From Onthophagus taurus (lineage: Eukaryota; Arthropoda; Insecta; Coleoptera; Scarabaeidae), in NCBI RefSeq assembly GCF_036711975.1, contig NC_091971.1:10485501-10549500 (forward strand): a stretch of 64,000 bases of DNA, in the 5' to 3' direction. The notes beneath the pieces were generated by a model. That model had not been told where the DNA came from. It was given only the letters and a program-made list of their open reading frames with translations, and ran no database searches. The translations under genes and the position numbers were made by a program. Positions within the stretch are counted from its first letter, which is position 1. Each line of letters opens with the position of its first letter. Positions 19,004 to 51,436 of the stretch are shown here, piece after piece.

Positions 19004-19010
19004 TATAAAT
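19004..19010 (+). promoter_or_regulatory. TATA box of first MARVEL-like gene
   Basis: TATAAAT lies 68 bp upstream of the ATG at 19072, giving room for a start site about 30 bp downstream and a short 5' leader. Confidence 0.45.
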
Positions 19011-19071
19011 ACAAATATTCATTTTCTTTAAGGTTGAAAAATTAACCTAAAGTGAAAAGAAAACAATAATT

Positions 19072-19699
19072 ATGGGTGTAAATCACAACTATTTCAGAAC
19101 GTTAAGTGGAGCTTTAAAACCCTTTCAGCTGGTAAGGTTTTAAATTAGTTTTATATACAAATACACGTTATTTTATTTATTTTTACCAGGCATTTAACTT
19201 TGTAATTATTATGATACTCGTCTTGAGCAGAGTCCCAGGTTGGCATAATCACTTACCGCAACCTCTCTTACAACTTTCAATCACAAATGCAGTTATTGGC
19301 ATAATAATCCTTATAATAAGATTGGCTCAAAATGATCGAAATGCGAACAATTTGTTAGGAAAAATAGAGTTTGGAATTTTCGTTGTTTCAGCGTATTTAT
19401 ATATTAGCTTTGCAAGTCTACTAATTCCAGTGGGATGGTTAGAATTTAATGTTGCTATGGTGAGCTTTTTACATACTCTTTTTGAAAATAGTTTCTGATT
19501 TATTTATTAACTAATATTATTTTAGGTTTTCGGGTATTTATTATCTATGTTATATGCTGCCGATGCATTTGATAAGTTTGTCCATTTTATGGGACGTGAT
19601 AACGAGCCTACTTATCAAAGATTTCCTCCTGCTCCGAGTCAAATTAATCCACCACATGTTTATCCTCAAGGATTTACAGTTGCAAATCCTAAACATTAA
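19072..19699 (+). CDS. MARVEL-like four-helix membrane protein, copy A
   Basis: Three exons (19072-19131, 19190-19459, 19526-19699) encode 167 aa; both introns are phase 0. Exon 1 gives a 20-residue cytosolic start ending 'LKPFQL'. Exon 2 holds three hydrophobic segments ('FNFVIIMILVLS', 'ITNAVIGIIILIIRLA', 'FVVSAYLYISFASLLI') and the family motif K-I-E-F-G. Exon 3 carries the last helix, then 'AADAFDKF' and a Pro-rich cytosolic tail. Topology and spacing fit the MARVEL/CKLF-like (CMTM, Singles-bar) class of vesicle and junction tetraspans; this is a topology call, not a search result. AATAAA is at 19747-19752. Closest neighbour is copy B, 290 bp downstream and similar in every exon. Confidence 0.75.
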
Positions 19700-19990
19700 A
19701 AAATAAAACAAAAATAACTTTTATACATTTAACACATCTTATTTCAAATAAAAACATTTTACCTCAACAAAGTGATTCATTTCTTAAAAATATTCATTAT
19801 TAAATTGGCTATTAAGATAATAATTTAATATGAGTATCGCCCGTTCAATCTTGCTTGTTCGATTGTAGGAGCAAACATTTCGCAGAATTTTTTTTATAGG
19901 TGATAACAAAAGCGATAATGAAAGTATATTAATAAAAAAACGTTGCCATTTTTATTCTTGTATTGGGTAAAGAAACATTAATTATTAATT

Positions 19991-20582
19991 ATGGGGTTTA
20001 ATTCTAACTACTTCAAAACGTTAAGTGGAGGCTTAAAAGTACTTCAATTGGTATGTAATGAAACAAAATAAAAACAATTTTTTAATAATAATTATTTCTT
20101 TTTTCAGAACTTCAACATAATAATTATTTGTATAATTTCTTTAGGATGGCGATCATATTATATAACACAACCCCTCCTCCAATTATCAATAGCAAATGTG
20201 ATTTTTTGCGTGTTAATTATGATAATAAGAGTAATGCACAACCCGCAAAATACAAACAGTGGTTTAGCTAAATTAGAATTTGGGATGTATTCAATTTCGA
20301 CGTATTTGTACGTTCATTTTTCAATTCAATTAATTTCAATAGCTGGATTTAAGGAATATAATGTTGCTATGGTAAGATTTTTCCGACGTTATTTCTTGTG
20401 GTAATAATTTTTTTATTTAGATCTTTGGATTATTAAGTTCTGTGCTGTATGCTAGTGATGCATTTGATAAGTTTACTAAATGTTGTATGTGCGGTGATAA
20501 TAAGTCAACTTCTCAATATGCAAGATATCCAGCACAAATTCAAAATGAGCCACCACCAGTTTACCCAGCACAGGGATATTAA
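19991..20582 (+). CDS. MARVEL-like four-helix membrane protein, copy B
   Basis: Three exons (19991-20050, 20108-20371, 20421-20582) encode 161 aa with both introns in phase 0. Start 'MGFNSNYFKTLSGGLK' aligns with copy A 'MGVNHNYFRTLSGALK'. Helices include 'IIIICIISLGW', 'VIFCVLIMIIRVM' and 'YSISTYLYVHFSIQLI'; the motif K-L-E-F-G-M precedes helix 3. The tail after 'ASDAFDKFTKCCMC' has a Cys cluster (possible palmitoylation) and ends 'PPPVYPAQGY'. AATAAA at 20606-20611. Tandem duplicate of copy A on the same strand; partners and function unknown. Confidence 0.75.
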
Positions 20583-21300
20583 GATGAAGAGTATTAAGTA
20601 AAGAAAATAAAATTGTTCATATTCTATTTTTCTTTTTAACCAATTCATACTAAAAATAAATTATTGATAAATGAATTATGAAATTGAAGAGTTTGCACTG
20701 TGAATCAGATTGTGCAGAATTCCTATAACAGCTACAAATATGAGTACAAACTGGGTGACTTTGCATTAAGTATCACGAGTTATGATCAGTCAGTATCACC
20801 TAATATGGTGGCATGAAAAGTGGTTTTTATATGTTGGACATGCAGTATGTTCTTCTGTTAAAAGTGCAACACTGTCAGATGACCATATACATCGACTACA
20901 ATTTTGCATCAAACTTAGTTTTGTTTCCAAATATCAATCAACCCAAGAAAGAATCTCCAATTCAAAATAATCCTCCACCTTACAGCTTTGAACAACATTA
21001 AAATTTCTGTGTTAATTAATACATTCTTTCTTTAATTCTATGCTCGTTTTAACCACATCTGCAAATGATTGCACAATTTATTTCGTATAACTAACCTGTC
21101 ATCGGCAGACCCAATGTGGGGTTGAACATCCCTTTAAAGTCCATCATCCAATAGGATCCGAGTTTCTGCAAACACCCTTTCTATTGGTGGCTAAGTAATC
21201 GATAAGCACCAGATTGTCCGCAAAATTCAACCCTATTCCCTTTTGTAATAAAGCTTATGTGAATTAGTCTTTGTGGAAATCAAAGATATTGTCCAACGCT
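20583..21300 (+). other. Intergenic with possible MARVEL exon-3 remnant
   Basis: Most of this stretch is featureless. At about 20930-21001 an open frame ends 'SPIQNNPPPYSFEQH' and stop, which resembles the tails of copy B ('QIQNEPPPVYP') and copy D ('QNETPPPYP'). It may be the decayed last exon of another family member. No intact exons 1 or 2 are found nearby. Confidence 0.3.
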
Positions 21301-21304
21301 CTAG

Positions 21305-21312
21305 TATATAAA
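21305..21312 (+). promoter_or_regulatory. TATA box upstream of Fer2
   Basis: TATATAAA lies 103 bp upstream of the ATG at 21408, suitable for transcription starting near 21335-21340. Confidence 0.45.
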
Positions 21313-21407
21313 CCAAATCCCACAGGATTTCGTTATCAATCTATTTTAAAAAGTCATCGCGTGTGTTGAATTAATAAAATGTGGAATATCTGTGTTGGAT
21401 TTTGACA

Positions 21408-22453
21408 ATGTCTTCAAGACAGCTTCCCGATTCTTCATCATCACCCCCGATCAAGTAACAATTACTTCATATAAATTTTTTATAAAAATACTTAAAAAAA
21501 ATTTTTTTTTAAGTATGCAGTTTGGTGGATTTAGTGCTGGTGAACTTTCCGAAGAAGAAGTCACCGAACTTCCAAGTTGTGCTTTTGCAACAAGGGCTAC
21601 TTCAAGCAGTACAAGTCTTCAACATCATTATTTAACATCTTTACATCACGCAACGGGTATTTTATTAATTCAATTTTTTTAAATCTAACTTAAACATATT
21701 TTTTATGATTCCATAAAGACACCAATCAATGTTCTGGAAGCTCCATGACCCAAGATTACTATGGAAGCTCACCATATCGAGTCCAGAGACATGCTGCCAA
21801 CATTAGAGAACGAAAAAGGATGCTGAGGTCTGCTATAGGACCCAACGGGTACTCCTTTGCTTTTCCTTTTTCTTTCGTTTTACTTAAATTTTAGTTTGTT
21901 GATTTTGTGTGATTTTTCCGATTTTATTTTAATAAATTGCTTATTATAATTTCTTTTGGTTTTATTTTTTTATTTTGATTTTTTTTTTAATTTGTTGATT
22001 AGTTTAGTTTAAATTGAATCTATTTGATTTACAAAAATGAACCTTTTTTGAACAATATTGTAATGTGCAGCAGTATCAACTCCGCTTTTGATGAACTTCG
22101 AATGCACGTCCCAACGTTTCCCTACGAAAAACGATTAAGTAAAATAGACACTCTTCGTTTAGCAATAGCGTATATTGCGTTGTTAAGAGAAGTTCTTACG
22201 GCTGATTGTGATCCTTTAACTTACGTGGAACGATGTCTTCGCGGCGAAATAAAAGCTGATAGAGCTAATTGGAATACAAGTGGTAAGGAAGAAAAATTTT
22301 GAAATAATAGTAAAAATTTGATTTAATTTTTTATTTTGTTTAGATTTAACAGCGCGATTATCTTGGATTAATTGGGAAAATTTAGGTGTTAACCCAGGTC
22401 GAAGAAGCACATTAACATCATTGGCTTTATCTTCGGATAGTATGAATCAATAA
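21408..22453 (+). CDS. Fer2: Fer2-type bHLH transcription factor (PTF1-like)
   Basis: Five exons: 21408-21454, 21514-21656, 21719-21827, 22074-22282, 22344-22453, giving 205 aa. The basic region '[13 protein letters not shown]' is followed by helix 1 '[20 protein letters not shown]', loop, and helix 2 '[20 protein letters not shown]'. The C-terminal block '[18 protein letters not shown]', '[19 protein letters not shown]' and '[16 protein letters not shown]' identifies the Fer2 (48-related-2) group rather than Fer1 or Fer3. Family role: nuclear heterodimer with a Daughterless-type E protein; in flies it is needed for subsets of dopaminergic neurons and locomotor rhythm. The exon 3/4 junction falls inside the DNA-binding motif and offers alternative in-frame sites (donors after 21827 or 21848; acceptors before 22071 or 22074). 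21827 to 22074 restores canonical spacing. Poly(A) signal AATAAA at 22539-22544. Confidence 0.9.
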
Positions 22454-22554
22454 TGAAAGAAAATTGTTGATAAAAAATTGTTTTGTTAATGTTAAGAATT
22501 TTTGTTTTTTGTATTGTTTTATTTTAATTAAAGATATTAATAAATTCTTTTAAT

Positions 22555-22650
22555 AACAGAGCTATGTTGTTGAATATGGTGGTGATCTTTAATTACTTCT
22601 GTAAACTATTCTACCTACTACTTTACACAAGTACGTTACGCCATAACTAG
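22555..22650 (-). pseudogene. Remnant of a MARVEL-like last exon behind Fer2
   Basis: Read on minus, this segment contains 'acagaagtaattaaagatca' followed by CACCACCATATTCAACA, matching the last exon of copy D (ACAGAAGTGATTAAGCAAAA..., then CACCTCCATATCCAACA) with indels. No open reading frame survives. With the Fer2 exon-5 fragment at 23597-23690 it shows that the Fer2/MARVEL tail-to-tail junction was duplicated. Confidence 0.5.
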
Positions 22651-23590
22651 CATATTTGAAGTTAGATCTATCGTATATGCCTATCTATCGTCCTTCATTC
22701 CATCAACATGGCCTCTCCAGCATCTTCGTCTTGATCTGGTCTTATCTGGCTTATGAGTTGAATCATGGAGGTTCAAAATAACATTTTTGTCTCGAAAAAT
22801 TGTCTATGATAAGGTTCGATTTAAACATTTATGTGTTGAGAATGATCCTTTGAAACCGTTCAGTTTGAGACGAAGATGAATAACACGATGACTGTATTCT
22901 TAAATTGTTCATAAGATTGTATTGAGACTTACTTGAATTCAAGATTAAGTTAAGCTGATGAGATTGAAACCAGGTTATGTAAGGATGCTTGAGACATCCT
23001 TGGATTAAGGGTTGGAATGATTTCAGACTTACTTAGTCTATGGAGTGATTCATTTCAAGATAAGGTCATATTTTGCAAAGTAATTAAGTATGATTGAAGC
23101 ATTTTTTTTGAGATTGGGTTGACTCATTAATAAATCCTGCAATGATTTTCAATCAAACTTCAAGAACAATTATTAATCTGTTGTGGTATAGATTGAGACA
23201 TTCTATATAGAAGTTAAGTGATGCCTGAACTTGAGGTTGCAATGATTTTTAAAAGCATATTGACACTCTATTGAGACATTATAAGAAGAAGGATGATGCA
23301 ATCGCAGTCGATGCCACAGAAGATCTTACAGATTCCTTAACAAAGTGATCATGGTCATCACAGAAATCATTGGGTTTTATTTCTTTGAAGAAGGAAATCA
23401 CAGAGTTATCCTCAATTGTATGCGAAAGTTACCAGATTTGTTTTTGCTGCAGCTCTTGAAGAACTTCATTCCGAGAATGCTAAACTTTACCAGGACGAAG
23501 CATTGGTACACAAAGTGCTAGCAGCAATGTAGGTTTTGATGAAAATAAAAATGTTATAAATTTATATTAAAATGTTTTGTTTATTTCTTT
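22651..23590. other. Spacer between duplicated Fer2 ends
   Basis: No gene recognised. A + strand stretch at about 23410-23532 stays open and reads 'LYAKVTRFVFAAALEELHSE' then 'DEALVHKVLAAM' before a TAG. It looks like the C-terminus of a real protein, but I cannot name it and no upstream exons are evident. The stretch at about 22860-23280 repeats 'ttgag(a/g)' and 'tgattgaa' type words without clear periodicity. Confidence 0.3.
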
Positions 23591-23700
23591 TAACAGCTCG
23601 TAAAATTAAAGTGTTACCCCAGGTAAAAGGAATACATTAGTATCATAGCTTCAGATACTATGAATTAATAAAACAGAATTCTTTTAAGAACAGATCGTAG
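23591..23700 (+). pseudogene. Duplicated, decayed Fer2 last exon
   Basis: An acceptor-like 'tttcttttaacag' is followed by sequence aligning with Fer2 exon 5: 'gtgttaccccaggtaaaagg' versus 'gtgttaacccaggtcgaaga'. Then 'acattagtatcat' and 'tactatgaat' match acattaacatcat and tagtatgaat. The shared downstream 'aattcttttaagaacaga' matches the Fer2 3' flank 'aattcttttaataacaga'. The frame is broken by small deletions and early stops, so it is not an alternative exon. Confidence 0.6.
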
Positions 23701-23730
23701 CTTTTTACAAAAATTATTCCAAAGAATTAC

Positions 23731-24295
23731 CTAAATTGTTGGATATGGAGGTGGTGTTTCATTTTGCTTAATCACTTCTGTCATATAAATAAAAGCAATT
23801 TTTGCAATGTACACAAAACAAGTAAAAAGACCAAATATCTAAAAAAAATTTTCATAATGATTCACATGTATTTTGCATATTGATTAATTTTTTATCAGTT
23901 TGTGAGATTAATATATACTTACTCCTGCCGCAATATAACTTCCTCCAAAATCTAACGCTAAAGCTGCAACTACCAAAAAGAAGATTGCCCAAATAATCAC
24001 ATAGATAAATTCATAAAAAACCCATGGTAACTTGAAAGTTTCATCTAAACCAAATAACCTAACTGCCATAAAAAATCCCGTGACAATAAATCCTACGATT
24101 GTTGCTATTAGAAAAGCGGCTTGTGTTCCTGAACTTTGTCCAGTTGCCACTATACATATAAAACTAATTAATAATAAAAACTGAAAAAAAAAATCAATTA
24201 CTTAAAAGTTATATTTAAAACAAATTCATTCTTACCAATAAAGCAGAACTAAGTACGCCTGATTTACTACGAAAATATGTTGCGTTAAATTTCAT
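23731..24295 (-). CDS. MARVEL-like four-helix membrane protein, copy D
   Basis: Minus strand, three exons: 24236-24295, 23923-24180, 23731-23838; 141 aa; both introns phase 0. It starts 'MKFNATYFRSKSGVLSSALL'. Helices include 'FLLLISFICIVAT', 'FLIATIVGFIVTGFFMAV' and 'VIIWAIFFLVVAALAL', with 'LPWVFYEFIYV' at the conserved P-W...E-F position and a final 'IFGLFTCFVYIAKIAFIYM'. The tail ends 'ETPPPYPTI', like copy B. It lies tail-to-tail with Fer2. First of the six minus-strand paralogues. Assignment to the MARVEL class rests on topology and family pattern. Confidence 0.72.
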
Positions 24296-25489
24296 TTTTA
24301 ATGTTCACATTTGTAATGAGATAGGGATTCGATTTGATGCGAAATCGAAATCACTAATATTTTAAGGCCTGTATCTTATCTAATCTGTTGTTATTTAGGT
24401 GGATATAAAGAAAACAGAAGTCCGTTATCAGGATTTTTTTCATAAATTCTATTTATAAAACGTTTCTAACAAATCAACATATTTATACCTATTGGAATTT
24501 TTTGTATAGAGTGTGATCAATTATTATAATTATAGAGGGTGATTCAAATAAAATCTTTACTCATGCATAAAATTATCTTTAATTAGTTTTTAAAGTATCC
24601 ACATTATCTTATTTACATATCCAATTGTATAAATATTCCCATGGCTACTCAAAACCATAAATCATGATGTCATTTGCGGTTCTCAACTCATCGCCATTTC
24701 ACCCATTGTTGGACATATTATTTGCTATACGGTTTGGTTTTAAGAGCCCTTCAACCCCTACACGATTCAAAAAGCGTGAAATTGTAACAGATTTTACGAC
24801 CACCCTAATTCAAAAGAAAATTATAAAAGAAAAACCCAACCCAATTTTTTTTTTTTTTGATTATATCTTTCTTAGGTAACAATTTTGACGCATCCCTTTT
24901 TTAATTATATCTTTAAATACCTATCTTTTAGAAACAAAAATTAATTGTACCTCATTTTATAGGCGTTACGCAATCGTTACATCCTCCACCCCTATTTTAC
25001 GACAAATTTCGATTGTCATAGCGTTTCAAAATCGTTTCGAACCATACGTCGTATTACCCGGGGGGTGATTTCCTTGTGATTTTCGAAAAACGTGCCCGAC
25101 ACGTGGAAGCGCCACGTTCAGTCACGTGCATTAGTATTCCGAAACACCCCACTTACATGTGTCAAACATAGTTGGTACTCCGTCGTTGTGGTCTTTATCC
25201 CCTAACCTCCACCATCCCCTCGCCTATAAATTCAATTGTTCGTGAAGATAAGCCAACTGGATTTCAAAACCAAAAAGAGAGCTTTAAGTCTTTTGAATAA
25301 ATTATTTGTTTTTTGGGCACGATTTGTTTGAATGTGCGTGTGGTTTATATGTTGAAAGGGTGGTTTTATTAATCTGTTTGTTGAAAGAAGGGATTAAGAA
25401 ATAAAATAAAAAAGATTTTAGAAGAATTTGAATTTTAAGTTTATTTTAATTCCATGGGAACTTAGTTTTAGATTAATTTATGTACCATT
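24296..25489. other. Intergenic; promoter-like E-box/TATA block at 25.1-25.2 kb
   Basis: No coding exon seen. The 25000-25230 block is much richer in G+C than its surroundings and carries regulatory-looking motifs (separate entry). A minus-strand AATAAA (25440-25445) serves copy E. Confidence 0.4.
25100..25230 (+). promoter_or_regulatory. Two CACGTG E-boxes followed by a TATA box, no obvious gene
   Basis: CACGTG occurs at 25100-25105 and 25123-25128, with GCCACGTTC between them, and TATAAA at 25225-25230 in a C-rich context (cctcgcctataaattc). This resembles a compact + strand promoter, but the next gene on that side is transcribed from the other strand, so no product is assigned. CACGTG is bound by bHLH factors (CLOCK/CYCLE, MYC/MAX, USF classes). 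Confidence 0.35.
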
Positions 25490-28400
25490 TTATGATTGTT
25501 CTTGTTTGTTTTCTTCGATACATTCTAAAATTTCCGCGACATAGAAAATTGAGGAGAGTAAAAATATTATCTAAAATAAAACATTTTTATTAATTTAAAT
25601 TTAATTATTTAAGTAACTTATATTATTACTTACTCCTGTTACTTTATAAGCATAACCGTCGTTGCAAATTAATTGTGGAGTCATATTTAAAAGAAATAAT
25701 ATCCAAACAACGCAAAATCCCATTTCAATTCTGTGCCAAGGTATTTTAACTATTTTGTCTAGATCAAAAGACTTTATCATTAAAAACACTAATGTTAAAA
25801 TAACAGCTCCCGAAGAAGCTATAAAAGCACAGGATGTTAAATCTTTTTGAGTGTTTGATGCTGAATATGACAACAATACTAAGATTATTGATGTTATTGT
25901 ATTGAACATCTACAAAATAATGTATTAATTATTTACAAGATATACAGTGCGTCCGTAAAATAGGGTATATGAGCGATAAAATTATTATAAACGGTTTGTG
26001 AAAATGACAAATTTGTACGAAAAAACAAAAAGAAGTAGTTGATGTCGCCATTCCAACATATACTGATTGGCAACTCATTAGCCAAAGTATGGTCAGCCAA
26101 GTTGGGACTAAATTTAAAAATCATGGGCATGTACGAGATCTCTCAAAGTCTGGTCGACCAAATGTCTCAGGGGAGATTCAACAAAATCTCTCCTGATTCC
26201 GCCCAGAACGCTGAGATATGATTTTCTCTTTTTCACTCCTACAACCCGCACTAATGCTTATCAACATTCCCCATTGCTGCGTGCCGCTCGATCAGCCGAT
26301 CGTCTGTCCATCGATATATTTGCTTATGAATCCATTATCTCGTTTAAAAAATCGTCCTTAGCTGCTGTTGGGAGCACGCCGTATCATCATTGTTAACATT
26401 ACAATCAGCAATTCCTTATTGTTGTTATTTTTTACTTGTTTATAGAATGTTTCCTTAATTTCAATCTGAATTTTTGATCATTTATTTTACTTATCTTATT
26501 TTATTTTACTTTTTTGCTACTGTTCACTACTGATGTTATTTTGTGTCTTTATTATTTTGTTTTGTTCGTATTCTTTTTAGTGACACAGCTTTTATTGGGG
26601 TCGTCCTGTGCTGTGTCCAATGTACATAAATAAATAAATAAAAACACGATTTTGGCTGTGTAAGAAGAGCCTCATGTTAATGTAAGGGATATTATTGGTT
26701 TGAATCTGGCCATTAGTAAATCAACTCACAAGATATTATGTCATCCCTATAAAGTAAACTTCATTCACGAGCTCAATGAAGATGATTTGGTAGAGGAATG
26801 TCTTGCAACGACAACGAAGTCTTCTTCATTTCTTACATTAAGTGGCTATCCAAAATCGACATCTTCATTAACGGCCACGTGACGACCACATCAACAATTT
26901 AAGAATAATAGCAGAGCAATGCATGGAATGGAGAGCTACAATGTATATAGTGTTCATAAACTTCTTAGAGCAAGCCGGAATCCCACCCAAAAGAATAGCA
27001 CTAATAAAAGAATTCTACAAAGATGCAAAATGCTGCGCACTACACAAAGAAAAAACCATGGAAGCATTTCCTGTCCTCAAAAACGTAAAACAAGGATGAC
27101 CCCTGTCCCCATTACTCTTTAACATAGCACTAGGCTGAACTATGAAAACATGATAACACCAATAACTACTAGACCTAGATTATGCAAATGACAGATGCGT
27201 GGTAGCGCATACTTTCAGTGATATGCAAGCGAGCTTAGAGAAACTGATTGAACAGAGCTAAGACTCAAGAACAACCAACGAAGGTTCATAATAGATACAC
27301 GGTACACTTATGTAGGCAGTGTAAAGCCAAAGGAGCCTTTGCAGTGCTGAAAGACGTATGGAACAGCCTGCATCTAAGAAGAAACAACAAAATCAGGGTA
27401 CATTACAGGAACTTAAAATCGGTTCTATTGTATGGACGCGAAACTGCAAGTGTTCACCAACAGATGCCTCAGAAAATTATTAAAAATCAAATCAGAACGA
27501 AAAAGAAACAAGGAGGTTTGTCAAACAAGGGGACTCTCAAAGCAACCCGCACTCAGTTAAGAAATCCGTCAGAGGAAATGGAACTGGATTGGGAAATCCG
27601 CTACAAAGGGAATCTGAAAATATTGCTAGGACAGCATTAGACTCATTAGACTGAAACCCACAAGGCACAAGATAGAAAGGAAGGCGCAGGATAACGTGGC
27701 GGAGATCCGTTATGAAAAAGATAATGGCAACAGGAAGATCAAACCGACTACTATGGCGTATTTTTGATATTTCTTGTTTATATATTTTTTTGTTGTTACT
27801 TTAATTTCTAGTTTATTTTTTTTATAAATTTAATTTCGTTATAATATTGATTTGATGAAAGAACCTACAATTTATTGTTAGGATTAAGAACTAAGACGAC
27901 CACTTTTTTGTTAAACGTGCTCAGTTGTGATTTTTCAGTTGTTTGTCTCACTGAAATATGGTTAAATGCGTCCATTTGTGATGCTGACCTATTGGATTCA
28001 CGATATAATGTGTTTATAGTTGATCGTGTTTATGATTCATTGGGTGGTGGTGTATTGGTGGCCATCAAATCAAAATTTATATCTTTGTTTATTCCGTTAA
28101 ACACAGTGTTGGAGATTGTAGCGGTTAGGACACGTATTCACAAGGCTGTCTTAATAATAATAATAATAATAGACTTTATTGCCAAACCACACAGCAATTA
28201 CAGAAATAAAACAATATAATATAGCAAGATAATATAACCAAAAATAAAAACAATAAATGATTCGAAAGAAAAAAAAAAGACACAAAATAAAACTATCTAA
28301 ACAAAAGAAAACTATCTAAACAAAAGAGAGCTATTGTAGCATAGTGCGGCAAGCAATTCACGAGGCGCAGATTCAGGAAAATAAAATCCTGTTGTTCCAT

Positions 28401-31400
28401 CTGGACCTCGATAACAAAAAGAGGTATTAAACATTAATAATTGAAGACGTAACAAACACAAAACACAAAAAAAAATTATTAAATTAGTTGTAAATAATAA
28501 ACTAATTAACTAAACTCGATTCCGTGACATGCGCAACGCAACTCGATATCGGGACCCCTTGCAACAGAGAAGCATCTGAATAATCTTTCAAATAACCGAG
28601 ACCTGAACGTCGATACACTTAACTTCCTATCAGCCATCGAAATAAGATTATAGGATTTGTAAACATGATATGAGAAAGATCTCTCAAACAAACCCGTGCG
28701 ATGGACAGGTGGAGAAATAAAGGAAATAAACCTAGTCAATCGATTATGAACGTTACTTCTAAAATTAATCTTCCTATATAAATAACTTGGAGTCTTACTC
28801 AATATTAGTTTATGATAAACCACCAATGTCTGAAGCACTCTTCTGTTCCCCATCGACAACCATCCAGCGTCAACTAACTTATGAGATATCTTATCATATT
28901 TTCGTATGCCATAAATAAAACGTAAACAGCAGTTTTGAATTTTTTGGATTCTATTTGAATCAAAAGCAGTTAACGCTGGATGGTATACAGGAACCATGTA
29001 ATTAAATTGAGACAAAATAAGAGCATCGCATAACATCCGCTTGACATCTATGGGTAAGTAAGACCTATGCGGAAAAAGTAGCCTGAGGGCGAAATAAGCG
29101 TTTTTAACATATTTACTGACCTGTGACGAATATCTAAAAGAACTATCAATTTCCAAACCAAGACTTTTATGACTATCAACTACAGGTAATTTCGTACCAT
29201 TCATGACAATACCAAAGGATATATTCATTTTAATTGTAGTATATACAGGTGTCCCGTTAAGCGTATGGAGCGGCTGTATCTCGACAACGGTAAGGCCTAG
29301 AGGTTTGGGAAAAAAATCCTTATAAGCAAAGTGACCAAGAGAAATGACTGGAAATTATTTTGAAGTTCGTAATTCGACCCCTAGGGGGCGTAACTGCCAT
29401 TGAAAAACATAAAATTCCCGCAATCTCAGAAAGTTAGACGATGAGTTATAACTTTGACAACATCATTTAGTAGCTTGGATAATACCGCATCGCTTTTGTT
29501 TTGCGATATTTCTCATATCTGTCATAATAAGGGAGGGGGAGGCCAATGCGTTTTCAAATGTTTACATTTTAATATCTCCTGGACCGTTCAACCCATTTGA
29601 ATATTTTTGGTCTTGTTTGAAAGAGCATTACATGCTCTTTTAAAAGATATTTTCAGTAAGACCGCTTGGTTTAAAACAAATAAGCTAGAGGGCGTTATCT
29701 GCAGCGGTTACATATTTTTGTGATTTTTGAAAAAAAGGTAAAATGGAACGGTACTGTTTTCTTCACAGACCCTTAATCACTATAAAATTTGCTAAATAAT
29801 AGTGAAAACCGCATCTCGATATCCCCATCCATTCTCGAATTATAGAAGAAAATGTTAAAAATTCGTATATCTTAATCGGATCAAGTTACCTTAGGAAACA
29901 AATAAGAGAGCACAAAAATTTTATTATCTAGACCCTTCCTTCACACTTTATCCAAGCTTAGAACTGCTTCAAAACTACTTTTGAGACGTGTTTAAAAGCT
30001 AACGGATCAATGAAATATCAACAATGATAATAAAACAAAAAAAAACCAAAACACTTAGAATAACTTAAATTTTTGGCAAAAATAGCTCACTAATGTGCGA
30101 AATGCCTTCCATAAACCTCGATCATTTATTTAATCTAGTTTCGACGAAAAAAAACTTAAAAGCTTAAGTCTCGGCCCTGGACACGTTTCTACTGGTATTT
30201 AGTGTTTTGTCATATTTTCCCTGGTTATTGGTTTTTCTTGAAAAGTCAGGTCGTTTAGTCTACGCAATAAATAAAGGGGTGAAAGCAATGTGGGTTTTGC
30301 TCGAACCAAGAATGCATATTATGCAAGTTTACACCAGCTTGTGGACAGATGCTTCATGCATCCATAGCATTTATGATAAAAGGTTTGGATTTATCCAAAT
30401 CATATTTAAAAGTCAATGATAATAGTTCAGTCTGTTATCATAATCGGTATCTGTTAAGACCTGATGTAAAACAACGTGGTGGAGATATTATTCTCTTGAG
30501 GAATCTTGTGGACAATTGTTTTCGGAGTTCCCAGATTATGTGTGAACTCCATGCATTGCGCACCAATGTGATTTACGAATTCATAGAGATGTCTGAATGG
30601 GCTACACGTTGCCAGTTTTCTGTAATCGCTAAATCAATCTTAAAAACACTTCTAGAGAAAAATGTCTTTCTTTGTCGTAATTGCATTGCACATTTTTGCC
30701 ATGCAATTGCATCGTATTCGAAACATTGAAAATAAATCATCATACGCTCTATCAATCATACGCTTCTGCGTTGGTAAATGACATGTTTACAGTTACCATG
30801 GTTATGTGATTTGTTTTTATCGATGAGGTAACTGGATCCGATTGATGGCACTCGAGTTTTTAACATTTTCTTCTATAATTCGAGAACGGGTGGCGATATC
30901 GAGATGCGGTTTTCACTAAAATTTACCAAATTTTAAGGTGACTAAGAATCTGTGAAGTAAATAGTATCGTTCCATTTAACTTTTCTTCAAAAATCACAAA
31001 AATATGTAATCGCTGTAGATAACGCCCTCTAGCTTATTTGTTTTAAAGCAAACGGTCTTATTGAAAAAGAGCATAAAATGCTCTTTCAAACAACACCAAA
31101 AATATTCAAATCGGTTGAATGGTCCAGAAGATATTAAAATGTAAACATATGAAAACGCATTGACCTCCCCCTCCCTTATTATGACAGATATGAGAAATAT
31201 CACAAAATAAAAGCGGTGCGGTATTATCCAAGCTATTAAATCATGTTGTCAAAATTATAGCTCATCGTCTAAGTTTCTGAGATAGCGACAATTTTATGTT
31301 TCTCAATGGCAGTTACGCCCCCTAACGGTCGAATTACGAACTTCAAAATAATTTCCAGCTATTTCTCGTGGTCAGTTTGCTTATAAAGATTTTTTTCCCA

Positions 31401-32044
31401 AACCTCTAGGCCTTACCGTTGTCGAGATACAGCCGCTCCGTACGCTTAACGGGACACCCTGTATTAAACCATCTAGTGGGATTGGAGTGTATCGAAAGTT
31501 TGTCGAATGAATGAGTAGTTTTGTAATTCTTGGCGATTTTAATCTGCTTCTCATAGGTAATACTCGATTTGATTTTTGTTGCGTCGGGGGCGGTAGATAT
31601 AACATAATTGGTGATTTCCTTAGTGTGACGAACTCACGAGGGTATACATTGGATTTGGTCCTGTCTAGTTAAATCTTTAGAGTTCCCACTTGTCGGGGAG
31701 GATAATTATCATCCTTGCCTAAATATCAAGTTGTCTTGTTACCTTTCTGGCAAAACAGTTCTGCTTAGTGTAAAATTTACACTATTAGACCAAATAGTTT
31801 GGATGAACTAAAAATCAGAATCTAAGTTCAGCAAATAACTCCTGATATCTGAATGGTCAAGAATAATTTGAAAATCATTTAAGCCCGTTTCAGAGATATC
31901 TCCTTAAACCATTTATAATGATTTTACGCCAATGCCCTTATTTTACGAACGCACTGTATATAAACACTTATACAAAATAAATTTACTTACCAACTGATTA
32001 AGTCTTAAAACACCCGAATAACTTCCTAAGTATAAAACACCCAT
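25490..32044 (-). CDS. MARVEL-like four-helix membrane protein, copy E (split by nested transposons)
   Basis: Minus strand: exon 1 31991-32044 ('MGVLYLGSYSGVLRLNQL'), exon 2 25634-25909, exon 3 25490-25570; 136 aa; both introns phase 0. Exon 2 begins ATG right after its acceptor, so an in-frame Met at that point is not proof of a start; exon 1 aligns with exon 1 of copies H and I. Helices: 'FNTITSIILVLLSYSA', 'SCAFIASSGAVILTLVFLMI', 'GFCVVWILFLLNM', and exon 3 'IIFLLSSIFYVAEIL'. The motif 'IPWHRIEMGF' sits at the usual place. Intron 1 is 6081 bp because a Tc1 nest (25945-31956) sits in it; without it the intron would be about 67 bp. Coding exons are intact, so the gene may still be expressed if the intron is spliced. 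Confidence 0.68.
26195..26645 (+). mobile_element. 5'-truncated LINE inserted in the Tc1 transposase
   Basis: The + strand frame 'TPTTRTNAYQHSPLLRAAR' followed by 'SADRLSIDIFAYESIISF' and a stop is the usual C-terminus of a CR1/Jockey-group ORF2. A 3' UTR follows, and an (AATA)n tail ends near 26645. Tc1 transposase homology resumes immediately after, so this copy landed within the transposase gene. Confidence 0.6.
26900..27755 (+). mobile_element. RTE-like LINE fragment
   Basis: RT remnants on +: 'LRIIAEQCMEWRATMYIVF', 'GIPPKRIALIKEFYKDAKC', 'PLSPLLFNIAL' and 'LDLDYANDRCV' (catalytic YADD changed to YAND). The C-terminal end reads 'KAKGAFAVLKDVWNSLHLR', 'NLKSVLLYGRET' and 'GRRRITWRRSVMKK'. 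Multiple stops and frameshifts; the order is that of the RTE-type ORF. Inserted in the same Tc1 nest. Confidence 0.6.
27860..28150 (+). mobile_element. LINE endonuclease domain, left half
   Basis: Codons from 27875 read 'LNVLSCDFSVVCLTEIWLN' then 'GGGVLVAIKSKF', matching the start of the APE-type endonuclease of CR1/Jockey-group LINEs. The domain is cut at 28150 by the insertions that follow and continues at 31464 with 'FVILGDFNLLL' and 'GYTLDLVLSS' (to about 31675). Confidence 0.6.
28150..29243 (-). mobile_element. 5'-truncated LINE, antisense, with (TTA)n tail
   Basis: A minus-strand frame of 240 codons (29228-28506) encodes the RT thumb and C-terminal region: 'SHKSLGLEIDSSFRYSSQV', 'LFPHRSYLPIDVKRMLCDAL', 'RIQKIQNCCLRFIYGIRKY'. 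A 3' UTR of about 350 bp and a TTA-microsatellite tail reach 28150. The open frame is unbroken, so this insertion is younger than its host LINE at 27860. It lacks the catalytic palm and endonuclease. Confidence 0.72.
29246..31461. mobile_element. Long-TIR DNA transposon (~610-bp inverted ends)
   Basis: Left end CAGGTGTCCCGTTAAGCG at 29246; right end, read inverted, CAGGGTGTCCCGTTAAGCG at 31461; both flanked by TA. The inverted repeats extend about 610-625 bp each (to ~29870 and from ~30855) with roughly 90 percent match by eye. The ~980-bp core has short open frames (30207-30419; 30349-30729) I cannot assign. Termini resemble those of the DUF4817-type element at 37125 (CAGGGTGATTCATTAGC), suggesting the same superfamily, but that is inference. 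Confidence 0.75.
31464..31680 (+). mobile_element. LINE endonuclease domain, right half
   Basis: Continuation of the element at 27860-28150: 'SSFVILGDFNLLL' carries the G-D-F-N catalytic motif and 'NSRGYTLDLVLSS' the C-terminal part. About 3.3 kb of younger insertions separate the halves. One stop lies upstream of GDFN. Confidence 0.55.
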
Positions 32045-32325: not shown

Positions 32326-32912
32326 TTACACTATAAGCGTTTTAGTATTTTTAAAATTTTCGTTTTCCTCTTTAGTGAAATTTGAGTCACAGGAACATTT
32401 CTCATTCTTCATTTCAGTGTAGCTTACAGAAGCGTCAATCATAAATGTAATAACACTAATCAAAGAAATCATCTAAAATAATATTAATTATTATTAAATA
32501 ATAATAACTAATTTATTTTTTTTACCTGGGCAATTTTATAGGGTTCATAGGAAATTGCTTGTGCTATAACAATAAAATAATAAACAGACCATGTAGTGTA
32601 ATAGCTTACTTCTAGTTTGCTCCATGGAACATTTTTTATGTATTTATCAATGTTGTGGATTTTTATAAGAAAAATAATAGAAGATAAAACCAAAGCTCCA
32701 ATCGAAGCAATTAAGTAAGCTGTTTGTAGGTCCCTATACCAGTTTTCGGCTACGATAATAGTGATTAGAGTGTTGCATATCTAAAAAATTTTTTATTACT
32801 ATAATGCCTTATCTAAACAAATACCTACCAATTGAACGAGTTTTAAAACGCACGGAAAACTTTTTAAATACGAAACATTTAATGATCCAATCGTTTTTGA
32901 TTCTAAATACAT
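32326..32912 (-). CDS. MARVEL-like four-helix membrane protein, copy F
   Basis: Minus strand, exons 32829-32912, 32526-32780, 32326-32472; 161 aa; both introns phase 0. Exon 1 'MYLESKTIGSLNVSYLKSF' is longer than in copies A-E and matches copy G. Exon 2 begins 'ICNTLITIIVAENW', has 'AYLIASIGALVLSSIIFLI' and the motif 'VPWSKLEVSYY'. The tail after 'MISLISVITFMIDASVSY' is charged and contains 'KCSCDS'. Paralogue of copy G (85-codon exon 2 in both). Function unknown. Confidence 0.72.
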
Positions 32913-35753: not shown

Positions 35754-36342
35754 TTAAACAATAAAACTATTTAAGTTTTTTAAATCTTCATTTTGCTGAT
35801 TCAAATTTGACTCATAGGCATATTTCTCATTTTTTATTTCGTTGTAACATATAGAAGCGTCAATCACAAAAGTAATAACACAAATTAACGAAAATATCTA
35901 AAATAATATTAATAATTTAATGTTCCAATCGGTTTATTTTATTGGGTAGTTCTTTTACCTCCGCAATTTTCAAAGATACCGAACCGGTTATTGGTACAAG
36001 AATAAGATAATAAAGGGACCATGTAATATAATAGCCCAGTTCAAGTTTGGTCCAAGGAATATTGTTCATGTTTTTATCAATGTTACGGAACTTGATAAAA
36101 ACAATAATAGAACAAAAAACCAGAGATCCAATTGAAGCAGTTAAATAAGACATGTGTTGTGCATCACCCCGCCATCGGCTCACTACAATAGCAGTGATTA
36201 TTGTGTTGCATATCTACAATAAAACTAATTACAATAAGAACTAAATCAATGAATTACTTACCAATTGGATGCGTTTCAATATGCATGGAAAGCTTTGTAA
36301 ATACAAAGCTTTTGATGTGGTAGTTTGTGATCCTAAATACAT
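35754..36342 (-). CDS. MARVEL-like four-helix membrane protein, copy G
   Basis: Minus strand, exons 36262-36342, 35959-36213, 35754-35897; 159 aa; introns phase 0. Exon 1 'MYLGSQTTTSKALYLQSF' pairs with copy F. Exon 2 has 'SYLTASIGSLVFCSIIVFI' and 'IPWTKLELGYYITWSLYYLI'; exon 3 'IFSLICVITFVIDASICYNE' and a polar tail ending 'NLNSFIV'. Intact by reading frame and splice sites. The hAT-type element begins about 330 bp upstream, so its promoter is close to transposon sequence. Confidence 0.72.
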
Positions 36343-36982
36343 TTTGTAAATATGATAGTATTTATGCAAATCTAACAACGTTTAGAAACAGAGTAGTTTA
36401 TTCTCTTTACAAAACTCAAAAAGAAAGCATACAATCACAATTTTATTAACCTTACATCTAACAAGTAGAAGACAAATCCGGTTCTTAAGTTTAACTAACG
36501 TGTCCTTGACGTCGCCATGTTGGTAGAGCTGGTAGATTTAAGTATAGTTATATTTAAACAGTAGGTAAATATTGACGAAATTATTTTTAAATGTAATTAT
36601 TGAAAAAGATGATAACCTTGAGAACAATAACGCTACACTTATTAGAAAATTAGTTTTTGATTGAAAATATCAACCAAAGAAATTGTATTACTAGAAGCAC
36701 ATACATATAAACACCAAGAGTTGAAGCCAGCGTTCGATGTGTTTTGTTTACGTTTTCACTCAGTCCAGAACGGGACGCGCTCAGATCGGACCGTCCGGCC
36801 GACGATCACCGAGTATTTACGAACAGGCCAATCGTTTTATGGTTTCTTTGAAAATAAATTTACCTAATTAATGTTTATCCATGTTTGTCGAACCCTAATA
36901 AATGAATAATTCTCTCTTAAGTAAACAAGGTTTGTGTGCGTATTTGTGTTTTGGCTTTGGCGAAGTTAACATTTTAGTAGTA

Positions 36983-37120
36983 CCGTATTTTTCAGACTAT
37001 AAGACGCACCTTTTCACATAGAAAAATGGACTCAATTTTGGGTGCGTTTTATGGTCGAAATATTTTTTTCAATAAATCGTCTCTAAATTTGAGGTGCGTC
37101 TTATAGTCCGAAAAATACGG
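36983..37120. mobile_element. Palindromic MITE
   Basis: Inverted arms CCGTATTTTTCAGACTATAA...GCACC on the left, and the reverse complement of ATAGTCCGAAAAATACGG on the right. About 138 bp, no coding. Ends four bases before the next transposon. This arm sequence type is widespread in animal genomes. Confidence 0.7.
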
Positions 37121-37310
37121 AATACAGGGTGATTCATTAGCTCTATGACAAACTTTGGCAGATGAAAGGTGATGCGATTCTAAGAAAAAAATGTTATATG
37201 AATATGGGTCCGATTCATTTTGGTTAAAGCGTTTTACAGAGAAAATTTTACACAGTTTAATAGGCAAATGAAAATGTAACATAAAAAATAAGTTTAAAAA
37301 TTACAAAAAT

Positions 37311-39057: not shown

Positions 39058-40349
39058 TTTCGTTTTCGATCAAAACTCTGACAATTATAAACTTTGAAAC
39101 ACACAGAATAGAGTAAATTGAAATGTTTGACGTAAAGAACTCAGTTTTGTTATCACAGCCAACTCTGTATTTGTGTTTCATAATTATTGTTGCGATTGTT
39201 GCAAATCTTTACTTCGTATTCAAGCTGAAGGCGGACATTTCGAACAATTTTTGTAATTTTTAAACTTATTTTTTATGTTTCATTTTCATTTGCCTATTAA
39301 ACTGTGTAAAATTTTCAAAGGCTTGTAACTCTTTAACCAAAATGAATCGCACCCATATTCATATAACATTTTTTCCTTAGAATCGCATCACCTTTCATCT
39401 GCCAAAGTTTGTCATAGAGCTAATGAATCACCCTGTATTTTGAAATTGAAACACTGGACATTATAGACGTTGCGAACTTAAAGAACGTGCATTTAACTAC
39501 CTAACTACTATTTTCTAAAAACTAATATTACTTGCCAATTTTGTTAAAATATGGTAGAAGGAACTAGTGATATTTCAATGCGACTATTAACGACAAAATG
39601 TATTATTCAATAACAAAAACATATTTTTAAAGTTAACTAATTCCATTTTATTAAGTTTACCTCAAAACATTTATGATCTTTTTGGAGATCATGAAATACT
39701 ATGTATAAAGTTAATAACAACAAAATTTATTAACGTAAAATTATTTAATGAAACCAAGTTAATAAATCAAGAATCTAGGCTTTGACATATGTTAAACAAA
39801 CAAATAGTATTTTCAAATCAACGAGAGTTACTTTAAAATTTATATTTATAAGTTAAATTTTAAGTTTTTTGTTATGTAATAAAAATTTTGAAACAAAATA
39901 CCAATGTTATTTGCAAATACAATATTTTTACTGCATTATTTACCATGAAAGTACTGTAAAATTCTAATTATATCATCTTTAATTTACTTGTAAGAAATAA
40001 ACCGTTCACAATTTATACGGTTACAATTATAAATTAATTAATTACAAAAGAACTCAAAGTTTACATCCCTTAATAAACATTTCAATCAATATAGAATATA
40101 AACTGCACATGAAATTTTGAAAAACCTGCTCAATAAAAAAAAATGATAATATACATTTCTTCATGTATGCCACTGTGTAAGTCTTTTGCCGAAACTATAC
40201 ACGCCACTGTCAGTGGGACCAAAACCAAAACAAACACTCGAACGATGGCTTCAATCTCGTATACGGGTGGGGATAGGCAATGCTGCTTTTAGTTATACAA
40301 TTTCTTTGATATCAACAATATAGATGTTGTTATCGTTTAACAAATATTG

Positions 40350-40900
40350 AATTAGCAGACATGCATGTTGCCTATGGAACAGTTTATGCGGAGCGGCTTC
40401 CTCAGCGTCGTACAAGTCAAGAAAAGAAAATGGAAGCCAATCCTACTATCTGAAGTATTGACTTTGAGGACCAAGTTGTGCAACAATTTGACAGTTATTT
40501 GAAAACAAGTACTCGGTCCATTGCCTAGATCTTTCCTTTCATTCCTTTCTCCTAGTCCAAAGCCTCCAACGACCTGTCTCATATGGTATTCAATGTGCAT
40601 AGTTGTTGTTTTAGAATTAAAATCTCCTAAAATGATTGTAATGTCTTTGTTAGGCACATTAGTAACTACACCGTCCAGAGCTGTGTAGAAATTTTCTAGT
40701 GTTGTCTCTTCCGAAATAGAAGTAGATTTACGTTATGTGCAGAATGCATGTTGAGGCAGGGAGTCGTATGATTCTATCATTAACTGCTACACTTTCCTCC
40801 ATGTGACCTGACAAATAAACATTGTTTCTCGAAATACAGTTTTCCTTTCCATTGCGATCCACTGATACCAAGGATATCAATGTCATGGGGTATAATCTCC
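40350..40900 (-). mobile_element. LINE endonuclease remnant (RTE/Craton-like)
   Basis: Minus-strand frame 40657-40352 starts 'MPNKDITIILGDFNSKTTT' and continues 'GGFGLGERNERKDLG', the G-D-F-N and G-x-G-x-R-N-E-R motifs of APE endonucleases in RTE-type LINEs. The 5' part upstream (to about 40900) is decayed: 'LYLSGHMEESVAVNDRII' appears in a broken frame. Confidence 0.6.
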
Positions 40901-41392
40901 TTTTTGATTATTTGGAGTTTTCTTGGTTGTTGTATTAGTCCACGTAAGTCAATCTACTTCGATTTTGCATGTTTGCTTTGAAATCAGTTTTGATTTGAAA
41001 GTTGCTATGATTCTCTTGGGAAAGAAAACCAACACACTTTGGATTAAATTGCCAAAACTGTCTAAATGCACAATTTCCAAACAGATGGATCAGATGAGGT
41101 GGTCCGATTTCTTGGTCTACCCATTTTTACTTGGGTCATATTAAATCACTGATTTATGAGACACGTGTTAATGCAGAAGAAGAGTAAGTGGCTCGAATTG
41201 GAAATCTGTTTTTTGGATTTATTTTGCCATAAAGTTGTTATGCATTCCATCACTATTACTGTCTCGATAAAGATTTTGTGATAACTAATAAAATTTTATC
41301 AGTAACAGACGATTAATCATTTTTACATAAAATTCGTCATATGAGATAAAAAAAATTTAATGAGTTATTATAAAAAAATCTTACACCACCAC

Positions 41393-41848
41393 ATAATAGT
41401 TATTTATATTACAAGTGGGCTAGAAACATAATTACTGTATGGGAATTGCACGACGAGTACTGTAATTATGCTCTAGCCCACGTGTAATATACAACATTTT
41501 ATCTACGACTGCTAAAAATTACTTAAAAATCAATTTTTTTAAAAAGGTTTATTTTGACGTTTATAAAAATATTTTGAAACGATTGTTGACAATTTTGAAT
41601 TAATGTCAGTTTCAATAACATGTTTACTCATCTGGAATAAGTATTTCGAAATGTAAAAACATAATGTTTATAATAAATAGTATTGTTTCTCTTTAAATAT
41701 TTTTGCTATAAATTAAGTCTGTTCTGATTGGGCTAAAAATGCGTTACGTAATGAAACCAGTGCGGTAATGAACTTCATTACGTAATTCAAATCACCTCAA
41801 ATGAGTGCGGTAATGATGACTTATCCAAGCAGTCGTAGATACGTTTTT
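41393..41848. mobile_element. MITE insertion specific to duplication unit 1
   Basis: Absent from the matching place in unit 2 ('caccaccacataa' followed directly by the T-run). It contains a hairpin 'gtgggctagaaacataatta' / taattatgctctagcccac (41417-41484) and inverted 'atctacgactgct' (41502) / 'agcagtcgtagat' (41830). No coding capacity. Confidence 0.65.
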
Positions 41849-41930
41849 TTTAAATTGTAATATCAAACAAGTCTAGAAATGGAACACGTACAACAGTATA
41901 GTATAAAAGAATAAATACTTTTGATTAATA

Positions 41931-42784
41931 CTACAATCCAGTTCTAAATTTATCTATAGCATCGATGATGTATAAAATCATTGCTAATAACCCAAAAACC
42001 TAAAAAAATTAATTAACATAAATTATTTTGATATAATTTATTAAAAAAATACTTACTCCTCCAGCAATATAACCATCCACATAAGTATCTATGACTTTAG
42101 TTGCTGTTATGTGATAGAATATCGACCAAATCACGCAATAACCAAATTCGATTTTCATCCAAGGTAAATTCATTGTTGTATCTAAATCCATGATTCTTAT
42201 TAATAAAAGTAGTAAGGTTATTATGAAAGCACCAATTGAAGCGACCAAAAAGGCATCACCTCTCGCTGAAACACCCGTTGCTGCTACACAAATGAAAGCA
42301 ATCAAATTGAATAACTAAAATAAATACAAACGTTAATTTATTAATGAATTATTAAATGTGGGTAAATGTGCTAACTGCTTAAAATTATCAACATCTTTTT
42401 CAGTAATTGAGTTAAAATAAGGTGTAAATATAAACTATTTCCATCTTTAATCGAATCAAAAGTAGTAATTTTAAGATGATCGTTTAAAATAACAATAATA
42501 ACTCATGTAAGTACTCGGAATTTAAAAACTTTGCAGTAATGTATTGCATTGAAGATTAACGATATACCAAAAATAAATGATAACAACATGCTTGTGTCGT
42601 AAATTCAAATTTTTCGTAATTCTAAATTTAAATTATTGAGTTATTAAAAAATAGATAACCTGTACAAAGTAAAAAAAAACTTACGTAAGCAAAAGAGGTA
42701 ATAAAGAATAATAAAATTATAAAAACTCACCAATTGTAAGCATTTTAAAGCACCTGGTAGTGTACGAACATACAGTAAACCCAT
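41931..42784 (-). CDS. MARVEL-like four-helix membrane protein, copy H
   Basis: Minus strand, exons 42731-42784, 42057-42314, 41931-41999; 126 aa; introns phase 0. Starts 'MGLLYVRTLPGALKCLQL'. Exon 2: 'LFNLIAFICVAATG', 'AFLVASIGAFIITLLLLLI', 'LPWMKIEFGYCVIWSIFYHI'. Exon 3: 'VFGLLAMILYIIDAIDKF' then 'RTGL' and stop, so almost no C-terminal tail, unlike copies A-G. Near-identical to copy I; they differ at about ten residues, mostly around the second extracellular loop. Product of a recent local duplication. Confidence 0.75.
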
Positions 42785-42870
42785 TTCTTAGTGGTTATTA
42801 ATAATAAATAGAACTCTTAATATGGTTTTTATAAAAATTGATAATAATACTGTACGCACCCACGCCTATC

Positions 42871-43144
42871 ATGGGTGTAGTTCGATACCTACTAACCGCC
42901 AGCATAGCCTGTCTGCTATCTGTGCAGATTACAATGTTTCTGCCAACTTTTTTGGAGTCGATGATCACATTGGCTGCTATATATATTGCAGTTATTTCGG
43001 CCTGAGCAGTCGTGCAGTAGGACCTTAGCGAAGTGGAAAGGTGCAGCTGGAGATTGTGCGAGAAAATTCCCGCTTCGTAGCCTTCTTTGGTCCATCAGTG
43101 TAGATGGTCAGCGTTATACCCGTGCTTAAGTTGCTCTGGGTTGT
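42871..43144 (-). mobile_element. LINE RNase H fragment between duplication units
   Basis: Minus strand: 'TLTIYTDGPKKATKRE', then in a shifted frame 'YCTTAQAEITAIYIAAN' and 'NIVICTDSRQAMLAVSRY', the D-E-D pattern of the RNase H domain of I/R1/LOA-group LINEs. Frameshifted and truncated on both sides. Confidence 0.65.
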
Positions 43145-44817
43145 CATGGGGCATAATCTCCTTTTCAATTATTTGGAGTTTTCCTGACTGGTGTATTATT
43201 ATGTTTGCTTTGAAATCAGTTTTGAGTTGAAAATTGCCATGATTCTCTTAGGAAAGAAAACCAACACACTTTGGATTAAATTGCCAAAACTGTCTAAATG
43301 CACAATTTCTAAACAGATGGATCAGATGAGGTGGTCCGATTTCTTGGTCTACACATTCACCAGATATGACTCCAGTTGACTCTTTTATTTGGGTCATATT
43401 AAATCACTGATTTATGAGACTTGTTAATGCAGAAGAAGAGTTAGTGGCGCGAATTGGAAATCTGTTTTTTGAATTTATTTTACCATGAAGTTGTTATGCA
43501 TTCCATTACTATTACTGTCTCGATAAAGATTTCTTGATAACTAATAAAATTTTATCAGTAACAGATGATTAATCATTTAAACATAAAATTCGTCATATTA
43601 GATAAAAAAAATTTAATGAGTTATTATGGAAAAATCTTACACCACCACATAAATTTTTTTTAAAATTGTAATATCAAACAACTCTACAAATGGAACGTAC
43701 AACAATATAATATAAAATCAATAAATACATTTGATTAATACTACAATCCAGTTCTAAACTTATCTATAGCATCGATGATGTATAAAATCATTGCTAATAA
43801 CCCAAAAACCTAAAAAGATTAATTAACATAAATTATTTTGATATAATTTATAAAAAAATACTTACTCCTCCAGCAATATAACCATCCACATTCGTATCTA
43901 TGACTAAAGCCGCTGTTATGAGATAGAATATCGACCAAATCACGCAATAACCAAATTCGATTTTCATCCAAGGTAAATTAATTTTTGTGTCTAAATCCAT
44001 GATTCTTATTAATAAAAGTAGTAAGGTTATTACGAAAGCACCAACTGAAGCGACCAAAAAGGCGTCACCTCTCGGTGAAACTCCCGTTGCTGCTATACAA
44101 ATGAAAGCAATCAAATTGAATAACTAAAAAAAAATACAAACATTAATTTATTAATGAAAATGTGGGTAAATGTGTTAACTGCTTAAGATTATCAACATCT
44201 TTATCAGTAATTGAGTTAAAATAAGGTGTAAATATAACCTATTTCCATTTTTAATCGATTCAAAAGTAGTAATTTTAAGATGATCGTTTAAACTAACAAT
44301 AATAACTCATGTAAGTACTCGGAATTTAAAAGCCTTGTGAAATTTACTTTAAACCAAACCTTTATCTACTTGTAAACGAATTGAACGAATATTATTTATC
44401 TGAAATCTAATCCTTCTCAAAATCTTTTTTGGTATTTAAATTTATAACTTAACGGAAATTTATAATCTTAATTAATGTATTGCATTGAAGATTAGCGATA
44501 TACCAAAAATAAATGATAACGACATGCTTGTGTCGTAAATCGAAATTTTTCGTAATTCTAAATTTAAATTTATTGAGTTATTAAAAAATACATAACCTGT
44601 ACAAAGTAAAAAAAACTTACGTAAGCAAAAAAATGTAATAAATAACAATAAGTTTATGAAAACTCACCAATTGTACGCATTTTAAAGCACCTGGTAGTGT
44701 GCGAACATACAGTAAACCCATTTTTTAGTGGTTGTTAATAATAATTAGAACTCTTAATATGTTTTTTCATAAAAATTAATAATAATACAGTACGCACCCA
44801 CGCCTATCGGTTTACTA
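43145..44817. repeat. Segmental duplication, unit 2
   Basis: Second copy of the 40885-42870 segment, same orientation, including MARVEL copy I and its flanks. It lacks the MITE of unit 1. High identity in coding and noncoding parts indicates a recent event. Confidence 0.85.
43741..44721 (-). CDS. MARVEL-like four-helix membrane protein, copy I
   Basis: Minus strand, exons 44668-44721, 43866-44123, 43741-43809; 126 aa; introns phase 0. Starts 'MGLLYVRTLPGALKCVQL'. Exon 2 holds 'AFLVASVGAFVITLLLLLI' and 'LPWMKIEFGYCVIWSIFYLI'; exon 3 is the same as copy H. All splice sites and the frame are intact. It pairs with copy H in a tandem duplication, so both may be expressed; promoters are also duplicated. 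Confidence 0.75.
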
Positions 44818-51435: not shown

Positions 51436-51436
51436 A

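Follow-up and report, generated by a model that had tools for sequence, protein, structure and literature searches.

What kind of protein do the eight small, similarly built genes at one locus of the scarab beetle Onthophagus taurus encode, and does their common design mark them out as a special family? The genes, here called A, B, D, E, F, G, H, and I, surround a gene for a basic helix-loop-helix (bHLH) protein in a window of 64,000 nucleotides (nt) (assembly GCF_036711975.1, contig NC_091971.1, positions 10,485,501 to 10,549,500), which is the whole stretch analyzed and the one in which all coordinates below are counted. An earlier note on this DNA had described them as a MARVEL-like cluster with a fixed three-exon design, a constant core, and fast-changing tails. 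The explanation that we favor, and hold to be reasonably probable, is a tandem array of insect MARVEL genes with a MAL-type gene structure, which would do epithelial work like that of MAL and plasmolipin, with diverged tails and partial control by a GATA factor.

All eight gene models were reassembled from the window DNA. The plus strand carries A (19072 to 19699; 167 amino acids [aa]; exons 19072-19131, 19190-19459, and 19526-19699) and B (19991 to 20582; 161 aa; exons 19991-20050, 20108-20371, and 20421-20582). On the minus strand are D (23731 to 24295; 141 aa; exons 24295-24236, 24180-23923, and 23838-23731), E (25490 to 32044; 136 aa; exons 32044-31991, 25909-25634, and 25570-25490), F (32326 to 32912; 161 aa; exons 32912-32829, 32780-32526, and 32472-32326), G (35754 to 36342; 159 aa; exons 36342-36262, 36213-35959, and 35897-35754), H (41931 to 42784; 126 aa; exons 42784-42731, 42314-42057, and 41999-41931), and I (43741 to 44721; 126 aa; exons 44721-44668, 44123-43866, and 43809-43741), the last a near-twin of H. 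The cluster extends from the start codon of A (19072) to that of I (44721). The orientation flips across the bHLH gene, as had been noticed before, so that all eight genes point toward it.

The rebuilt models bear out the exon sizes, the leucine at the end of exon 1, and the phase-0 introns that had been claimed. Each of the 16 introns has GT-AG ends and lies in phase 0; exon 1 spans 18 to 28 codons with Leu as the last one in every gene, exon 2 has 85 to 92 codons, and exon 3 has 23 to 58 including the stop. Introns measure 48 to 84 nt, except for intron 1 of H (416), I (544), and E (6,081). The end of exon 1 interrupts predicted helix 1, exon 2 encodes the remainder of it together with helices 2 and 3, and exon 3 encodes most of helix 4 plus the tail. 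A motif described as E-(F/L/M)-G near helix 3 is present in the wider form E-(F/L/M/V)-(G/S/I), with the Glu invariant in all eight proteins, and in the model of I it sits at the start of that helix. When a profile built from the eight proteins was run against window open reading frames (ORFs) of at least 18 codons, all 24 exons were recovered at E ≤ 2.8e-4 and the best other ORF had an E value of 0.31. Since the profile includes its own targets, this recovery mainly shows the absence of another copy; no ninth intact gene was seen among these ORFs.

Family membership was judged with the Pfam profile PF01284 (MARVEL), taking the Pfam gathering score as the cutoff. H (2.3e-13) and I (4.5e-15) exceeded it, and MARVEL was the top match, below the cutoff, for D (5.3e-6), E (1.5e-5), G (2.6e-5), F (4.4e-4), and B (0.025). 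BLASTP with protein I found each of the other seven, the weakest being A and B at about 7e-13 (A versus I, 35% identity, E = 6.7e-13); A joins the group because it is 51% identical to B. Structures were predicted for I and A. The AlphaFold model of I (predicted local distance difference test [pLDDT] score, 88.8) has helices at residues 9-31, 35-59, 70-93, and 98-123, and that of A (pLDDT, 73.0) has four long helices and a low-confidence tail, so both proteins are predicted to have a MARVEL fold with four transmembrane helices. In Foldseek, the best Protein Data Bank (PDB) match of both models was synaptogyrin 8a6m, with template modeling scores (TM-scores) by query length of 0.74 for I (E = 5.5e-3) and 0.63 for A (E = 0.12).

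Several results weigh against this identification. Six of the eight proteins fall short of the gathering score, and in A MARVEL comes third (E = 0.14), behind two other subthreshold families. Neither model had a Foldseek match at E < 0.001; judged by TM-score and rank, the structures lend good support, but it falls short of overwhelming. In B, F, and H the third helix escaped a simple hydropathy scan (17-residue windows, mean ≥ 1.3), so that for these three proteins the count of four helices depends on homology and on what was modeled for I and A. A PDB sequence search yielded three irrelevant matches (E, 1.1 to 2). NCBIfam returned ten weak families, each in a single member (best E, 0.0022). 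Overall, the analysis supports reading the eight genes as encoding four-helix membrane proteins of the MARVEL superfamily, as the earlier note had suspected.

We then compared the exon junctions with those of human MAL. The MAL protein sequence used in the mapping is presumed to be correct; the exon sizes were taken from the literature. That gene has four exons, of 31, 56, 42, and 24 codons, with every splice between codons (PMC8145151). Counting from the ends of the Pfam matches, and assuming a gap-free stretch between match end and junction, junction 1 falls after PF01284 profile column 14 in all eight genes and in MAL, and junction 2 after column 119 in MAL and in the seven genes whose match reaches that far (all but E). 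In a separate MAFFT alignment, of five cluster proteins (I, A, D, G, and E) with MAL, the junctions coincided in all 6 rows, at columns 31 and 137. The two cluster junctions are thus at the positions of human MAL introns 1 and 3, all phase 0, which is the MAL-family layout with two of the three MAL introns at the exact columns; the probability that two randomly placed introns would both coincide with MAL sites is about 4e-5. Most simply read, both introns are older than the vertebrate/arthropod split, and the cluster genes lack the middle intron of MAL. The intron match does not by itself prove orthology to MAL. The fixed three-exon design is true of all eight genes, but it drops as an argument for a special cluster, since the junctions are common with human MAL; the layout appears to be of MAL type and anciently inherited rather than a mark of this locus.

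The cluster is a tandem array that grew by duplication, with A/B, D, E, and F/G as old members and H/I as a young pair. In a tree of the eight proteins alone, midpoint rooted for drawing only, A and B separated from the rest with support of 100/99 and F joined G with 96/97, while D, on a long branch, joined H and I with only 89/91. Tandem growth would predict neighbors to be the closest relatives, and this holds for A-B, F-G, and H-I, although D is nearest to H/I and not adjacent to them. Synonymous divergence (dS) agrees with the expansion that had been proposed, being about 1 for A/B and 0.5 for F/G. Between H and I, identity is 95% in the coding DNA and 94% in intron 1, and the nonsynonymous divergence (dN) is 0.042 at a dS of 0.085.

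So close a pair could represent two haplotypes of a single gene separated by the assembly, which would bring the true count to seven. The coding identity and the tandem spacing of about 1.8 to 2.3 kilobases (kb) would fit, but the two differ in 9% of their residues and by 128 nt in the length of intron 1, their upstream 100 nt are merely 84% identical, and the divergence is above what we take to be the usual allelic difference; we consider this explanation very improbable. Somewhat more room, though still on the unlikely side, has to be given to the possibility that the array is largely the product of neutral tandem duplication in a repeat-rich region, its copies redundant and its tails drifted without new roles. 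The ratio dN/dS is near 0.5 in H/I and F/G, exon 2 and intron 1 have diverged to a similar extent between H and I (identities of 0.938 and 0.936), and repeats and mobile-element pieces surround the genes. Against neutrality, 24 of 24 exons are intact with proper splice sites, A/B keep a dN/dS of about 0.34 at a dS of about 1, and the one Glu has stayed invariant throughout.

The long first intron of E (6,081 nt, between exon 1 at 32044-31991 and the start of exon 2 at 25909) holds an element of about 6.0 kb at 25940-31961. Its terminal inverted repeats, each about 57 nt long (25940-25997 and 31906-31961), begin with TACAGTGCGT(C/T)CG, and further inverted repeats are nested inside it at 29248-31458. 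Without this element the intron would be about 60 nt long, like those of its relatives, so E is a normal member whose intron was invaded. Other repeats lie around H and I. The blocks 3' of the two genes (40881-41406 and 43142-43662) were duplicated along with them; pieces of these blocks are 88 to 96% identical, the blocks as a whole 84% over 542 aligned columns with gaps, and by eye they resemble mobile elements. Directly upstream of H, at 42798-43094, there is by eye a frame resembling a retroelement RNase H, and the upstream sequence common to H and I amounts to only about 86 nt.

The claim of a constant core with fast-changing tails was not borne out in the two pairs that allow a measurement. 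Rough estimates gave similar dN values for core and tail in A/B (0.365 and 0.337, over 31 tail codons) and in F/G (0.275 and 0.296, over 29 tail codons), and the tails therefore do not change faster within these pairs. Between subgroups they are unlike. B and D carry a PPxY motif (PPVY and PPPY, respectively), F and G end in LIV and FIV, and H and I have four residues beyond the core, in keeping with the nearly absent tails that had been reported for them. A weakness of any general role for PPxY is its presence in only two of the eight proteins; the tail of A lacks it. Downstream of B, at 20950-21001, is a possible leftover of a PPxY tail, by eye SPIQNNPPPYSFEQH followed by a stop, with weak DNA similarity to B (21 nt, E = 0.046).

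The hydrophobic ends of F and G are similar to class II PDZ ligands and bear on a different explanation, namely, that the proteins serve as structural components of septate junctions or of other contacts between cells, like claudin-like, occludin-like, or Pasiflora-type tetraspan proteins. MARVEL proteins share the claudin topology and members of the clan act in junctions (PMC4582180), and MARVEL proteins have been counted among tight-junction components (PMC6296663). However, the links between helices 1 and 2 and between helices 3 and 4 are short in the model of I, so that an extracellular domain of the claudin kind would not fit; among the structural matches of this model, a claudin chain comes only seventh, after synaptogyrin; and the almost tailless H and I offer little for scaffold binding. 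A junctional role of this type appears unlikely to us. Under the array explanation that we prefer, the vesicle or cell-contact role suggested earlier would be drawn by analogy from the superfamily.

Upstream of the genes, sites of the WGATAR type were frequent. The regions before A (18772 to 19071, plus strand) and D (24296 to 24595, minus strand) contain four each, two of those of A being at -97 and -86 and one of those of D at -86, and the region before I (44722 to 45021, minus strand) contains three (-277, -150, and -145). Seven upstream regions together held 19 sites versus 7.5 in dinucleotide shuffles (ca. 2.5-fold), a number that none of 2,000 shuffles reached, and the enrichment over AT-rich window segments had a p value of 0.0005; the upstream region of H, mostly not common with that of I, was excluded from the test. 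The downstream 300 nt of the eight genes contained eight sites in total, about the window background of 1.1 per 300 nt, in a control that overlaps the test set (most of the stretch 3' of A doubles as the upstream region of B, and the stretch 3' of F as that of E). Five of the eight genes (A, B, D, F, and H) have a site at -86 to -97, an interval picked after viewing the sites and slightly different in the case of H.

Among 416 5-mers, GATAA ranked second by z-score and occurred in 7 of 7 upstream regions, while the top one, GGCGA, occurred in just three of them; among 900 6-mers, AGATAA was seventh. Two points count against GATA control: the test followed a first sighting of the motif by eye in D and I, and TGATAA was only 72nd among the 6-mers. 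In insects, GATA factors drive midgut, fat-body, and blood-cell genes. That the array may be partly coregulated by such a factor is a lead and not a proof.

The gene toward which the array points lies between B and D, and its last two exons, with boundaries read by eye, are at 22071 to 22453 on the plus strand. A bHLH domain (PF00010, 1.9e-14) is all that the scan shows; the name Fer2 is that of the earlier note. Beside D there is a decayed copy of the last exon of the bHLH gene (23602-23683; 73% identity over 77 nt), which scored 63.5 against at most 40 in 500 shuffles. Just 3' of the bHLH gene, 33 nt (22562-22594) resemble the end of the last exon of D, scoring 34.5 against at most 30 in 1,000 shuffles. 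This pattern suggests that a block of the bHLH gene plus a D-type gene was once duplicated and then partly lost. Farther out, ORFs with FCH (F-BAR) and SH3 domains at 13321-15732 on the plus strand probably belong to one gene, which we take to be Nostrin-like. An ORF at 2466-2906 has a YqaJ-like viral recombinase domain (3.8e-12) and is probably of mobile-element origin. Pieces resembling a non-long-terminal-repeat retrotransposon extend over 51360-53229, with an RNase H at 52300-53229 (3.2e-14), a preceding reverse transcriptase-like ORF recognized by eye, and a local GC content of up to 0.42.

If the proteins are MAL-like, both ends of the four-helix chain would be cytoplasmic. Their work might parallel that of MAL and plasmolipin, which condense patches of membrane and direct cargo into vesicles; the apical face of a single epithelium would be the most likely site. 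The subgroups would then have diverged through their cytoplasmic tails, with PPxY in B/D, hydrophobic LIV/FIV ends in F/G, and almost nothing in H/I, and a GATA factor could coregulate part of the array. Singles bar of Drosophila is an insect MARVEL protein. MAL and PLLP (plasmolipin) act in apical traffic, and PLLP is required for apical endocytosis in the zebrafish gut (PMC10216460). An insect "CKLF-like MARVEL transmembrane domain-containing protein 4" with four predicted transmembrane segments appears in moth midgut brush-border proteomics (PMC7379565), and according to a passing remark in a review, endogenous MAL is missing from insect cells (PMC8145151).

A bolder version, to which we give little credence, is that insects carry a GATA-regulated epithelial array of MAL type whose ancient core and subgroup docking codes (WW-binding PPxY in B/D, a PDZ-like C terminus in F/G, and none in H/I) make the proteins sorting adaptors for one tissue, e.g., the midgut.

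No insect or beetle MARVEL gene cluster was found among the papers listed from a mostly nonsubscription literature, which is weak evidence of absence; one match was a tardigrade paper that has MARVEL once in a table. None of the literature matches listed combined a MARVEL domain with PPxY and Nedd4. Viral and prokaryote contigs, scanned with protein I only, gave 14 and 57 pattern stretches and no relatives; the alignment of all eight proteins has no stretch of sufficient conservation for such a scan. What kind of proteins these are, and what work they probably do, is already known, and what is new is the intron match, the correction concerning the tails, and the GATA lead. Intron positions tie this cluster of small insect proteins to the MAL type where sequence identity is weak (ca. 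28%), and the GATA signal, if real, would open a way to study how membranes are sorted in an epithelium of an insect. At present this is a good annotation of a known family plus one testable regulatory lead.

Among known systems, the synaptogyrin/synaptophysin group is close in that synaptogyrin is the best structural match of the models of I and A, but the identity in these structural alignments is just 16% and 11%. The top rank of synaptogyrin may partly reflect how few MARVEL structures have been solved. The MAL family (MAL, MAL2, MALL, PLLP, and CMTM8) resembles the cluster in its four helices, its match to the MARVEL profile, its protein size (153 aa versus 126 to 167 aa), and the phase-0 position of the exon 1/2 junction and of the last junction at the same columns. 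Unlike MAL, the cluster genes have no middle intron, B and D bear PPxY tails, and protein I is 28% identical to the MAL sequence used here. The arrangement also differs, since the beetle genes stand in tandem, whereas the human ones are spread over six chromosomes, with MAL and MALL about 15 Mb apart (PMC10216460).

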